In this document: positions 4,258 through 56,118 of the stretch, one piece after another
Layout: the number at the start of each line of letters is the position of its first letter
How positions within the stretch are numbered: position 1 is the first letter of the stretch
From: Parvularcula sp. IMCC14364
GTDB taxonomy: Bacteria > Pseudomonadota > Alphaproteobacteria > Caulobacterales > Parvularculaceae
Direction: 5' to 3'
Length of the DNA stretch: 64,000 bases
Assembly (NCBI RefSeq): GCF_030758415.1
Contig: NZ_CP132334.1
Span: 2,492,001 to 2,556,000 of the forward strand
Notes under the pieces: model-generated
Database searches by the model: none
What the model saw: only the letters and a program-made list of their open reading frames with translations
What the model was told of the DNA's origin: nothing
Position numbers and translations under genes: made by a program

Positions 4258-5457
4258 TCAGCCAGCCATTTTCTCTGTGGAGAGTTGAGTATCCAAGGCT
4301 GTAGCCAGCGCAGCAAAGGCATCGTCCTTTGTTGCAGCATCCGCATCAGGAGCATCGATACGTGGCAGGCAGACTGAAACGCGTGTGCCGGTGCCTTCTT
4401 CGCTGACCAGCCGCATCTCCCCATGATGCAACTCTGTGAGGGCGTGGCAGAGGGCAAGCCCGAGGCCAGTGCCTTTAGCGCCGCGCACGCCTTCCTTATG
4501 CGCCTGAGCAAAGCGTGCGCCGATGCGCTGCTGCGCTTCGCGGCTCATGCCGATGCCGGTATCACTGACAGACAACCAGAGATGGTCTTCATCATAACGC
4601 AAGCGCACAGTAATGCCGCCCTGACGGGTGAACTTGATCGCATTGGACAGAAGGTTGAGCAGGATCTGACGCACCGCGCGGGCATCAACAACAACCGCTG
4701 GCAGATCACGCGCTATATCGGCATTGAGATCCAGTCCTGCAGTTTCGGCGCCCAGCCTGCTGATTTCAACGCAATCGGTAATCAGGTTCTGCAGATCAAC
4801 GGGCTCTTTATCGAGGGTAAATTTGCCCGCTTCCAGTTTCGCCATGTCGAGCAGATCCGACACGAGCGAGAGAAGGTGTTCGCCGCTTTTGTGGATGAGG
4901 TCGGCATATTCGGCATATTTATCGTGGCCGACGGGGCCGAATGTCTCGTTGCGCATCATGTCGGCGAATCCGATCATGGCGCTGAGTGGTGTGCGAATTT
5001 CGTGACTAAGGTCGGCGAGATAACCGGCTCTGGAATCTGCTTCTGTCTCTGCCTTGTCGCGCGCGGCGTGGAGCGCGAGATCGCGCTGACGGCGATCGGT
5101 GATATCCCGGATGATACTGCGTATGCGCCCGGCACGGTCTGCCGAGACGGCAATTTCCGTCCAGCGCACGCGGCCATCCGCTGTCAGGAATCGGCATTCC
5201 GTCCGGCCCTTTGATCCCTTTTCCGCAACTTCTGCGAAAAGCGACATGACACGCGCGCGGTCTGCAGGCGCGAGCATGTTGGTCAGGGATTTTTGGTTCA
5301 GGTCTTCAGGGGTGTGGCCGAGGAGATGGCGCACGGATTCAGAGACCCGGGTCAATCTGCCATCCGGCCGGTGCAGCGCGATCACGTCATCGCTGTCACC
5401 TGACCAGAGCCGGTCAGGATATGCGAAAGGCAGTATACTTTTAACAGCCCTGATCAT
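4258..5457 (-). CDS. PAS-domain sensor histidine kinase, orphan
   Basis: This 399-residue soluble kinase has no membrane segment. A PAS domain spans about residues 20-125 (ending in the typical IIRDITDRR linker), a HisKA dimerisation domain about 145-210 with the phospho-accepting His152 in SHEIRTPLSAMIGF, and an HATPase_c domain to about 370. Its N box is QILLNLLSNAIKF, the G1 box is SDTGIGMS and the G2 box is GTGLGLALCH. No receiver domain is fused and no response regulator lies beside it, so the partner is elsewhere. This architecture resembles alphaproteobacterial PleC/DivJ-like kinases, but the signal and partner cannot be inferred. It is convergent with the flavin oxidoreductase (2 bp apart). 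Confidence 0.92.
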   Translation of the reverse strand: MIRAVKSILPFAYPDRLWSGDSDDVIALHRPDGRLTRVSESVRHLLGHTPEDLNQKSLTNMLAPADRARVMSLFAEVAEKGSKGRTECRFLTADGRVRWTEIAVSADRAGRIRSIIRDITDRRQRDLALHAARDKAETEADSRAGYLADLSHEIRTPLSAMIGFADMMRNETFGPVGHDKYAEYADLIHKSGEHLLSLVSDLLDMAKLEAGKFTLDKEPVDLQNLITDCVEISRLGAETAGLDLNADIARDLPAVVVDARAVRQILLNLLSNAIKFTRQGGITVRLRYDEDHLWLSVSDTGIGMSREAQQRIGARFAQAHKEGVRGAKGTGLGLALCHALTELHHGEMRLVSEEGTGTRVSVCLPRIDAPDADAATKDDAFAALATALDTQLSTEKMAG

Positions 5458-52449: not shown

Positions 52450-53577
52450 TTACTCCTCCTCTGAATGCTGTTGCATATAAGTCATCATGTCCCTTGCGAG
52501 GTTGAAATAAGCCTGCTCTGCTTCGCGAAACTTTCCGTCATTGCTGGTGAACGCCATGACGGTTTCGGCCTCCGGGAAGACCAGCAGCAACGCATACCAC
52601 ATCGTGTTCGTGCCATTATGCCAGATCAGGGTGCCGCCAGCCCATTTGCGCTCCATAATACCGATGCCATGGGCATACTCATCCAGAACAGGTGTATGCA
52701 GAATATCCCACGTATCCTGCATCAGGAAATCACTGCGCCCCTGATATCCATCAAGATGCAGTTGGCCATAGATGGCTAAATCCTGAAGGGACATATGGGC
52801 TCGGCCCGCCGGACTCATCAGGGGTGTGTTGTCTGCCCCATCCGCCGGATTCATGGCCATCTTGATGAAAAACCGTGAGGCGTGACTCCACGGGTTATCT
52901 CCGTCGGGGGCCCCGAAACCGGCACTTTCAAGTCCCAGCGGTTGAAAGACCTTTTCCAACATTAGCGTCTCATAGGGTATATCTGTGACGCTCTCCGCAA
53001 TATGACCAGCCAGACTGATCCCGGCATTGGAATACTGGAACTTTTCACCAGGTGGTGTTGCCGGTGCCTTGGCCAGCATCGCAGCAAAAACCTTCCGACG
53101 CTCCAGACGCGCCTCTTCATGAGTTTCCGGCCATTTCAGCTTCGCTGACAATGGGAAGTTTCCAGGCATACCGGCTGTGTGCGTCATAAGGTGGTGCAGG
53201 GTAACTCTTTGCCACCCAGCGTCCATCTCATTGGCAAGGTCCGGCAGCAACTGAGGCAAAGTCTGTGAAAAACTGACCTTGCCCTCATCAACAAGCAATC
53301 CGATCAGGACACCCGTCATAGATTTAGTCACCGAGCCGAGATGCCACTTGTCATTCTGCTCAATTAGGTCTGGCTTGCCATTCCGGCGCACGCCATCAAC
53401 CGAGAGCGCAACAACAGTGCCATTACGAACAATGATGGCGCCCGCCCCGACAAGCCCTTCGGCGTCTCTGGCACCAGAGAGTCCAGCGTCTAGCTGGCGC
53501 TGAATATCATCATTCGCATGTGACGGGCTGATCGTGTACAACACCGACAAAATAATCAAATAACACCAACGGCCCAT
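52450..53577 (-). CDS. Serine hydrolase, beta-lactamase class C family
   Basis: This 375-residue exported protein has a signal peptide (residues 1-22) and the SxxK motif SVTK (in HLGSVTKSMTGVLIGL), the YxN motif YSN (in KFQYSNAGISLAGH) and WHNGTN in the third-motif place. These are the penicillin-binding-type catalytic groups. The family includes esterases, peptidases and beta-lactamases; no reason to prefer a beta-lactamase. Start at 53577 has GGGAG upstream. It precedes the small exported protein in one operon. Confidence 0.9.
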   Translation of the reverse strand: MGRWCYLIILSVLYTISPSHANDDIQRQLDAGLSGARDAEGLVGAGAIIVRNGTVVALSVDGVRRNGKPDLIEQNDKWHLGSVTKSMTGVLIGLLVDEGKVSFSQTLPQLLPDLANEMDAGWQRVTLHHLMTHTAGMPGNFPLSAKLKWPETHEEARLERRKVFAAMLAKAPATPPGEKFQYSNAGISLAGHIAESVTDIPYETLMLEKVFQPLGLESAGFGAPDGDNPWSHASRFFIKMAMNPADGADNTPLMSPAGRAHMSLQDLAIYGQLHLDGYQGRSDFLMQDTWDILHTPVLDEYAHGIGIMERKWAGGTLIWHNGTNTMWYALLLVFPEAETVMAFTSNDGKFREAEQAYFNLARDMMTYMQQHSEEE

Positions 53578-53675
53578 GACAGTCTCCCTGTTACGCATTA
53601 CCCTGGACAAGGTATCTGGCCACACCGTGGCAAGGTCAATATTTTTACCACAAACGACCCCGTGAGAGAAATCCA

Positions 53676-54116
53676 ATGGAATATCTGCATACGATGGTCC
53701 GGGTCTCGGACCTTGACGCCTCCCTCGACTTCTACTGCGACAAGCTGGGGCTAGAAGAAGTCAGTCGCTATGAAAATGACAAAGGGCGCTTCACGCTGGT
53801 TTTCCTCTGCGCCCCCGGGGACCGCGAACTGGCTGAGCAAAAAAAAGCCCCGATGGTGGAACTTACCTATAACTGGGATCCTGAACAGTATGACGGGGGG
53901 CGCAATTTCGGCCATCTGGCATATCGCGTCGATGATATTTATGCGCTTTGCCAAAAATTAAGGGATAAGGGCGTGACCATCAATCGCCCACCGCGCGATG
54001 GGCACATGGCGTTTGTGCGCTCGCCTGACGGTATTTCGATCGAATTGTTGCAGCGCGGCGAAAATCTGCCTCCTATGGAACCATGGGCCAGCATGGAGAA
54101 CACTGGCAGCTGGTAA
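53676..54116 (+). CDS. gloA: Lactoylglutathione lyase (glyoxalase I)
   Basis: This 146-residue VOC enzyme has the four metal ligands in order: His5 in LHTMVRV, Glu63 in VELTYNW, His80 in [12 protein letters not shown] and Glu126 in SIELLQR. It detoxifies methylglyoxal as the hemithioacetal with glutathione. Divergent from the serine hydrolase, with a 98-bp shared region. Confidence 0.93.
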
Positions 54117-54288
54117 TTATCATACGCTTGTTTTGCCTTGTTTATCCTGGTTCAGACCGCGATTATCTGGTTGCTTTGTCTCTGGATGCGCAATAACCTG
54201 ATATATTGTACCACCTGTACGGTATTGGTACTGAAATAACGGCGTGAAGGGGATAGCGCGCCGAGAAAAAGATTCGGGGGGACCCCAT

Positions 54289-56118
54289 ATGCAGGTCAGA
54301 TTCTGGGGAACGCGTGGCTCCATCGCCACATCCGGCAAAGACAAGCTGAAATACGGCGGTAATACATCCTGCGTGGAAGTGCGCTCACAATCAGGCACAC
54401 TGATCGTGATTGACTGCGGGACCGGCGTGCACCCTCTGGGCCAGCAACTGGTCAAGGAATTCAACGGCCAGGTAAGCGGCCATATGCTTATCAGTCATAC
54501 TCACTGGGATCATATTCAGGGTTTCCCGTTTTTCACGCCGTATTTTGTCCCCGGTAATGAATGGCACATCTATGGTCCCAGCGGCTTTGGCCCGACCATG
54601 AATCAGGCCCTGTCCGACCAGATGCAATACACCTACTTCCCGGTCTCCATGGAATACATGGCCGCGAAGCTTCATTTCCATGATCTCGTCGAAGGCTCAT
54701 TCCGGATTGGGGACATCACGGTGCGCGCCCGCTATCTCAACCACCCGCAGCTTACGCTGGGCTATCGTCTGGAGGCAGATGGCGCTTCTGTCGTTTATTC
54801 CTGTGACCATGAACCACATTCACACGCCTGTGCCATGGGCCACGGCAATATCACCGGCAATGACCATGAACATGCCGAATTCCTCGCGGAAGCTGATCTG
54901 GTGATTCATGATTCACAGTACACGGCTGATGAATATGAGACAAAAATGGGCTGGGGGCACAGCACGTATGAATATGCCTATCGCATGGCGCAATATGCCG
55001 ATGTAAAAAAACTCATGTTCACACACCACGACCCGTTGCGTACAGACAAGCAGATTGATGCAATTGTCAAATCCGTGCACAAACGTGTTGGCGGCAAGAA
55101 CAAGATCAAGGCCGAGGCTGCCACGCAAGGCACCATGATTGGCATCAAGGGGAACAGCCAGACCAACAAGATCCAGCCTGTCTCCGTAAAGCCTGTGCGC
55201 GACTCGGAAGTCGATGCTTTCTCCCGCCCGCTGACCGCCTTGATGACGCACGCTGTCCTGCTTAATTTCGGCACACCAGCTGAAGTTAAAACCGTGACCG
55301 ACATCCTGAAAACGGATTCGATCAAAATGATCATTGCCAAGACAGCTGATGAAATTAAAGAAGCCATCGCCGCACAACCCGTGTCCCTGTTCGTCGCTGA
55401 CATGGACCTCGAATTGTTTGACCTCGATGATGTTGTAGGCGCCATACGCAACCGCGTGGATACCGGCGGATCGGCTGTGCCTGTTATTGCGATTTCTTCA
55501 GAAGAAAACTGCACCGAAACGCAACCGGAAGAATTGCGGGACTGGATCATCAAGCCATTCTCAATCGAATATCTCCGCACCCGGATAAGAGCTGCGCTGT
55601 TGCAGCAGGCTGGCAAATGGGTGCGTGCGCCACTGATCAAGGGCGAAGAAGCGCGCCTTGCAGAAATCCAGCGCTTCGGCTTCATGTCAAAACGCAATGA
55701 AGAGCGTTACGACCGCATCACGCGCCTGGTTTCATCCTATTTTGATGCGCCGATCTGCCTGATCACGGCAGTTGATCTTGAGACGCAGGTTTTCATGTCA
55801 AAAACGGGCACGGCAGTCGAGCAAACCTCCCGGGACCAGTCATTCTGCGCTCACGCAATCCTGAAACGGGAAGTCATGATCGTGCCGGATACGTTGCAAG
55901 ATGAGCGCTTTGCCGAAAACCCGATGGTGCTCAGCGAGCCAAAAGTGCGCTTCTATGCTGGCGTGCCTGTGTGTATGCCAAGCGGCCACGCGATTGGAAC
56001 GCTCTGCATACTGGATACTCAACCGCGTGAACTTAGCGAGAAACAGATCAACGACTTGCGCGATTTTGCCGCGATGGTTGAACATGAACTGGCACGGGAA
56101 AAAGTCAGCCTGCTCTGA
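54289..56118 (+). CDS. Metallo-beta-lactamase / receiver-like / GAF three-domain protein
   Basis: This 609-residue protein joins three domains. Residues 1-285: MBL hydrolase with HTHWDH (70-75), YSCDHEPHSH and FTHHDP, of the cyclic-phosphodiesterase-like type (starts MQVRFWGTRGS). Residues ~320-440: a receiver-like domain with Asp371/Asp373 in FVADMDLE and Lys422 in IIKPFS, candidates for phosphorylation. Residues ~475-609: a GAF domain (ITRLVSSYFDAPICLITAVD and onward). The ATG at 54289 has GGGGGG upstream; an in-frame upstream start at 54244 lacks a domain. It may be a signal-regulated phosphodiesterase. A terminator follows. Confidence 0.87.
   Translation: MQVRFWGTRGSIATSGKDKLKYGGNTSCVEVRSQSGTLIVIDCGTGVHPLGQQLVKEFNGQVSGHMLISHTHWDHIQGFPFFTPYFVPGNEWHIYGPSGFGPTMNQALSDQMQYTYFPVSMEYMAAKLHFHDLVEGSFRIGDITVRARYLNHPQLTLGYRLEADGASVVYSCDHEPHSHACAMGHGNITGNDHEHAEFLAEADLVIHDSQYTADEYETKMGWGHSTYEYAYRMAQYADVKKLMFTHHDPLRTDKQIDAIVKSVHKRVGGKNKIKAEAATQGTMIGIKGNSQTNKIQPVSVKPVRDSEVDAFSRPLTALMTHAVLLNFGTPAEVKTVTDILKTDSIKMIIAKTADEIKEAIAAQPVSLFVADMDLELFDLDDVVGAIRNRVDTGGSAVPVIAISSEENCTETQPEELRDWIIKPFSIEYLRTRIRAALLQQAGKWVRAPLIKGEEARLAEIQRFGFMSKRNEERYDRITRLVSSYFDAPICLITAVDLETQVFMSKTGTAVEQTSRDQSFCAHAILKREVMIVPDTLQDERFAENPMVLSEPKVRFYAGVPVCMPSGHAIGTLCILDTQPRELSEKQINDLRDFAAMVEHELAREKVSLL

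Follow-up and report, generated by a model that had tools for sequence, protein, structure and literature searches.

A Parvularcula protein joining a metallo-β-lactamase hydrolase, a pseudo-receiver and a GAF domain: a candidate ligand-controlled cyclic-nucleotide phosphodiesterase

Within the window, the 64,000-nucleotide stretch of Parvularcula sp. IMCC14364 DNA that we analyzed, one gene encodes a protein in which a metallo-β-lactamase (MBL) hydrolase is followed by a receiver (REC) whose phosphorylation site is degenerate and by a GAF domain. Our preferred reading, to which we assign a probability of about 0.5, is a dimeric, GAF-ligand-controlled cyclic-mononucleotide phosphodiesterase with the pseudo-receiver as scaffold or coupler: a di-metal MBL-fold enzyme of the atypical class-II type would hydrolyze a 3',5'-cyclic mononucleotide (most likely cAMP or cGMP), a small ligand bound at the C-terminal GAF domain would set its activity, and the pseudo-receiver would act as a scaffold, hold the dimer together or couple the sensor to the enzyme. 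Catalysis, the substrate, ligand binding by GAF, the dimer and the direction of regulation are what we infer; if they hold, the family suggests an unrecognized, widespread group of regulated cyclic-nucleotide phosphodiesterases.

Domain layout of the protein

The gene and its domains are arranged as follows.

54289-56118, plus strand: MBL-pseudoREC-GAF protein, 609 residues plus stop (ORF, Pfam, full-length relatives)
54289-55152, plus strand: MBL hydrolase domain, residues 1-288 (PF12706, 4e-16; fold matches at Z 21-27)
55153-55239, plus strand: flexible linker, residues 289-317 (pLDDT <50 at 290-317)
55240-55623, plus strand: pseudo-receiver domain, residues 318-445 (fold confirmed, active site degenerate)
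55624-56115, plus strand: GAF domain, residues 446-609 (PF01590, 1.4e-16)

The ORF runs from an ATG at 54289 to a stop codon at 56116-56118; an alternative in-frame GTG at 54244 (54244-54288, 15 codons upstream) is possible, although relatives favor the ATG. Pfam places Lactamase_B_2 (PF12706) at residues 39-247 and GAF (PF01590) at residues 471-600, the latter with 61.7 bits against a curated cutoff of 22.4, while the Response_reg match (0.0044) falls below its cutoff. An AlphaFold model built on a 51-sequence alignment (mean pLDDT 83, pTM 0.75) bears out the original prediction of three domains in a single protein: residues 1-288 form an MBL fold, residues 290-317 are a disordered linker, and a receiver topology in which helix 4 is not clear precedes the GAF domain. 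Despite the subthreshold Pfam score, the receiver fold is present: modeled on its own, segment 316-446 takes a receiver fold (pLDDT 83) that aligns with solved receiver structures (Foldseek ∼1e-6, Z ∼16), with RitR, a known pseudo-receiver, among the tied best structural matches. The neighboring gene at 52450-53676 encodes a serine-type β-lactamase-like protein (PF00144, 1.2e-47) that is unrelated to the MBL fold.

Metal site and candidate substrates of the hydrolase

The metal site is intact. All nine metal or active-site residues (H70, H72, D74, H75, H152, D173, D208, H224 and H246) are invariant in 82 of 82 relatives, and most lie in recognizable motifs.

54493-54513, plus strand: metal motif SHTHWDH (H70, H72, D74, H75), invariant in 82/82 relatives
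54742-54744, plus strand: metal ligand H152, 82/82, with a 21-residue spacing to D173 in 82/82
54805-54816, plus strand: DHEP with bridging metal ligand D173, 82/82
54949-54966, plus strand: GWGHST with H224, an RNase Z-type HST motif; H224 in 82/82, aligned to the RNase Z HST
55021-55035, plus strand: THHDP with metal ligand H246, 82/82

Residues 1-289 of the model match the folds of RNase Z, YhfI, BA1088 and PhnP at Z 21-27; the earlier suggestion that the hydrolase resembles cyclic-phosphate phosphodiesterases is supported. Bacillus subtilis YhfI, which prefers cAMP and cGMP (PMC9117128), matches at Z 26.6 with an rmsd of 2.3 over 234 residues; RNase Z is equally close in fold, and a PhnP-family diphosphatase is also structurally near. 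By sequence profile, RNase Z (4.5e-17) matches far more strongly than PhnP (0.0013) or Apyc1 (0.018), and the protein shares the metal ligands and the HST motif of RNase Z/ElaC; unlike those enzymes, it has signaling domains and lacks the tRNA arm, which RNase Z carries as an insertion between its His and Asp ligands (here H152 and D173 are always 21 residues apart). It scores far below the RNase Z equivalog TIGR02651 (68.9 bits against a cutoff of 293), and with 45.7 bits against a cutoff of 400 it is likewise not assigned to the cyclic-nucleotide phosphodiesterase equivalog NF041851.

Atypical class-II cyclic-nucleotide phosphodiesterases (Rv1339, Corynebacterium CpdA and YhfI) have the same MBL fold and PF12706 assignment, a catalytic domain of similar size, and also no tRNA arm; SHTHWDH fits their [T/S]HXHXDH motif (described with Rv1339 in PMC9293780). 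These enzymes are single-domain proteins, whereas here the predicted hydrolase is followed by a pseudo-receiver and a GAF domain. Given the YhfI-like fold, the missing RNase Z insertion, the score below the RNase Z equivalog cutoff and the [T/S]HXHXDH motif, our best guess, which we put at even odds, is that the MBL domain is a cyclic-mononucleotide phosphodiesterase; our literature search found no biochemistry for the MBL-REC-GAF subfamily.

The enzyme might instead cut another phosphodiester (a sugar cyclic phosphate, a 2',3'-cyclic nucleotide, a linear dinucleotide or an RNA end) under the same regulation. That the closest profile is RNase Z and that RNase Z, PhnP and the PhnP-family diphosphatase are all structurally close makes this a possibility to be taken seriously, though we hold it to be the less probable one: the tRNA arm is missing, and class III cyclases occur in all sampled genomes with MBL-REC-GAF (32 of 32, versus 179 of 299 Pseudomonadota at E ≤ 1e-15), a comparison that ignores phylogeny and genome size and has a high background of 60%. 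Of the six genomes of the genus, the four with MBL-REC-GAF have strong matches to cyclases and to CRP-type proteins, and the two without it do not. We regard this co-occurrence as suggestive only.

The Parvularcula sp. IMCC14364 genome also encodes a CRP/FNR-like regulator with the cNMP-binding motif GEIALLDEGPRTA (L135:6262-6990, minus strand); cNMP_binding matches as strong as this one were seen only in congeners with MBL-REC-GAF.

Regulatory domains and the question of a kinase

Of the five catalytic residues of a receiver, D371, S403 and K422 are present, and the Mg2+-binding acidic pair is replaced by F327-G328.

55264-55272, plus strand: end of β1, N326-F327-G328 (V-D-D in canonical receivers; DD in 13/16 MBL-REC relatives)
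55399-55401, plus strand: D371, the phospho-acceptor Asp position (D in 18/55 and E in 28/55 MBL-REC-GAF proteins)
55495-55497, plus strand: S403, the conserved Thr/Ser position (S or T in only 20/55 MBL-REC-GAF proteins)
55552-55557, plus strand: K422-P423 (K in 13/55; P invariant in the MBL-REC-GAF alignment)

The original prediction of a retained Asp and late Lys in the receiver is thus correct as far as D371 and K422 go, but it overlooked the missing acidic pair. The alignment there is anchored by Pro330, common to canonical relatives, and by Pro423; congeners keep LNFG or LTFG at the end of β1, so F327-G328 is not a sequencing error. The acidic pair is complete in none of 55 MBL-REC-GAF proteins, and a single acidic residue is found in one; at the position of Asp371, most carry E, G or A. 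A fully canonical receiver site is found in 0 of 55 MBL-REC-GAF proteins, in 13 of 16 proteins ending after the receiver (MBL-REC), and in 0 of 11 proteins of a third architecture, MBL-REC-cNMP_binding-GGDEF. The 609-residue protein lacks the full set of five phosphorylation residues that marks a canonical response regulator; judged from its sequence, the middle domain is a pseudo-receiver by the published definition, in which at least one of the five is missing (PMC12632262).

Because the Mg2+-binding pair is missing, the receiver should not be an efficient phospho-acceptor. A kinase encoded elsewhere could still switch it through Asp371, given that D371, S403 and K422 are all in place and that some Asp-retaining pseudo-receivers may still function, inefficiently, in response regulation (PMC12632262). 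We consider this very improbable in view of the loss of both acidic ligands, the replacement of the Asp in most relatives and the gene neighborhoods. No kinase is linked to the gene at 54289-56118, and kinase-like genes lie in the examined flanks of 2 of 49 MBL-REC-GAF loci versus 6 of 15 MBL-REC loci (Fisher p = 0.0014, a value that ignores relatedness, three of the six kinase-flanked MBL-REC loci being close relatives). The earlier idea that the hydrolase is switched by a kinase is therefore not supported. Nor is its candidate partner, the PAS kinase gene at 4258-5457: a best match to this gene is present in all six genomes of the genus, including two without MBL-REC-GAF (G010 and G011), and in a congener (G012) its counterpart lies 1.2 Mb from the MBL-REC-GAF gene. 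Five of the 15 screened MBL-REC relatives adjoin hybrid kinase genes; canonical MBL-REC genes convergent with hybrid histidine kinase genes occur in Myxococcota and Pseudomonadota (L091, L092, L104, L101 and L107).

Like the bacterial pseudo-receivers RitR, FleQ and ShkA (PMC12632262), the domain described here has a receiver fold without the full phosphorylation site and is encoded by an orphan gene; unlike them, it is attached to an MBL hydrolase. The same review regards the switching of bacterial pseudo-receivers as an unanswered question; no lactamase, phosphodiesterase or GAF protein is mentioned in its main text.

The GAF domain is the more plausible input, as the original prediction allowed in proposing a ligand acting on the hydrolase. 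Many of its residues are invariant across phyla, including C520 in the alignment of the FCAH motif.

55843-55854, plus strand: GAF-domain motif FCAH, with C520 invariant and H522 almost invariant

Its closest solved relative is the GAF domain of PA2771 (4zmu; Z 27.7, rmsd 1.2 Å over 165 residues). PA2771 (Dcsbis) is a GAF-GGDEF diguanylate cyclase whose GAF domain is 34 to 36% identical to ours at 1.0 to 1.2 Å rmsd; PA2771 has GGDEF as its effector, in place of the MBL domain found here. The PA2771 GAF domain dimerizes and has a large hydrophobic pocket, and it binds neither cAMP nor cGMP (PMC4937426); because of the latter, a putative ligand other than cAMP or cGMP is more likely here too.

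Distribution and architectures of the family

The domain-architecture search recovered at least 55 MBL-REC-GAF proteins from GTDB genomes and congeners (a sample drawn from 80 loci among the matches listed, plus congeners), spread over about ten phyla: Pseudomonadota, Nitrospirota, Verrucomicrobiota, Cyanobacteriota, Actinomycetota, Myxococcota, Rokuibacteriota, Vulcanimicrobiota, Chlamydiota and Thermodesulfobacteriota. The domain order, originally called unusual, deserves that description only in part, because the fusion is widespread. In the open-access literature searched, we found no description of MBL-receiver fusions, which is not proof that none exists. With the fusion present in many phyla and key parts of the receiver chemistry lost, control of the protein probably comes from a bound ligand and not from a kinase.

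Orthologs with 81 to 93% identity keep the whole architecture (the closest named relative among the matches listed is an Aquisalinus metagenome-assembled genome [MAG], 91% identical), and distant MBL-REC-GAF proteins are ∼45% identical along their full length. Among 62 Parvularculaceae genomes, the full protein occurs only in the genus of Parvularcula sp. IMCC14364, whose complete 3.4-Mb genome has three members: the 609-residue protein, a 65% identical full-length paralog with the same architecture, and a 48% identical MBL-REC paralog. Clustering of neighboring genes revealed no conserved operon partner of MBL-REC-GAF (wrong-frame ORF clusters were disregarded). A small ORF, NTF2/SnoaL-like by eye, adjoins both paralogs (L133:10933-11298 and L134:7969-8400); as a functional hint, the paralogs' neighbors (the small NTF2-like ORFs and a lepA-like gene) were uninformative.

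The MBL domain is more widespread than the fusion and mostly stands alone (175 of 387 alphaproteobacterial genomes match at E ≤ 1e-60). The second architecture, MBL-REC, is represented by 16 proteins of ∼445 residues; the third, MBL-REC-cNMP_binding-GGDEF, comprises 11 proteins of ∼750 residues with degenerate receivers (L093, L094, L095, L096, L098, L099, L100, L102, L103, L106 and L109; Pfam was run on three). A tree of the MBL domain places the cNMP_binding-GGDEF proteins in a single clade (support 100/100); in it, the GAF proteins cluster with moderate support (90/77) apart from the canonical receivers, and canonical MBL-REC proteins appear at two places. The MBL-REC paralog of Parvularcula sp. 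IMCC14364 is nested within the GAF group and has therefore probably lost its GAF domain.

The MBL domain might also be a housekeeping metabolic enzyme, outside signaling, whose C-terminal domains only oligomerize it. Stand-alone relatives of ∼275 residues in many Alphaproteobacteria fit such a role, as does the receiver's being the least conserved domain (mean identity to distant relatives is 21%, versus 55% for MBL and 44% for GAF). We find it unlikely, since the GAF domain keeps its invariant residues across phyla and since both the sister clade with a cNMP sensor and GGDEF and the canonical clade with a complete receiver site point to signaling inputs. Synonymous sites are saturated, so the one statement that dN/dS per domain allows is that all three domains are under purifying selection.

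Returning to a ligand-controlled phosphodiesterase, we tentatively suggest, as one possible history, that a phosphorylation-controlled MBL-REC protein was rewired twice to ligand control, once by gain of GAF and once by gain of cNMP_binding-GGDEF, each time losing the receiver site and keeping its fold as a coupler. Because the tree is midpoint rooted, the order with the canonical receiver first is one that we infer. If this history is true, the second branch would unite cyclic-nucleotide hydrolysis, cNMP sensing and diguanylate cyclase activity in a single polypeptide that could link cAMP to c-di-GMP. The family amounts to a natural experiment, with the same hydrolase joined either to a canonical receiver beside a kinase or to a dead receiver and a ligand-binding domain; the canonical- and dead-receiver proteins are similar enough for part swaps, making them a test case for pseudo-receiver function.

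In five relatives (L081, L085, L090, L105 and L108) the frame stops early, by frameshift, assembly error or decay. MBL-REC-GAF genes were also found in MAGs labeled Klebsiella pneumoniae (L049, 6001-7809) and Halobacteria (L036, 71-1897); in the tree, these genes cluster with Verrucomicrobiota and Ectothiorhodospiraceae, and so both bins are probably mislabeled or mixed.
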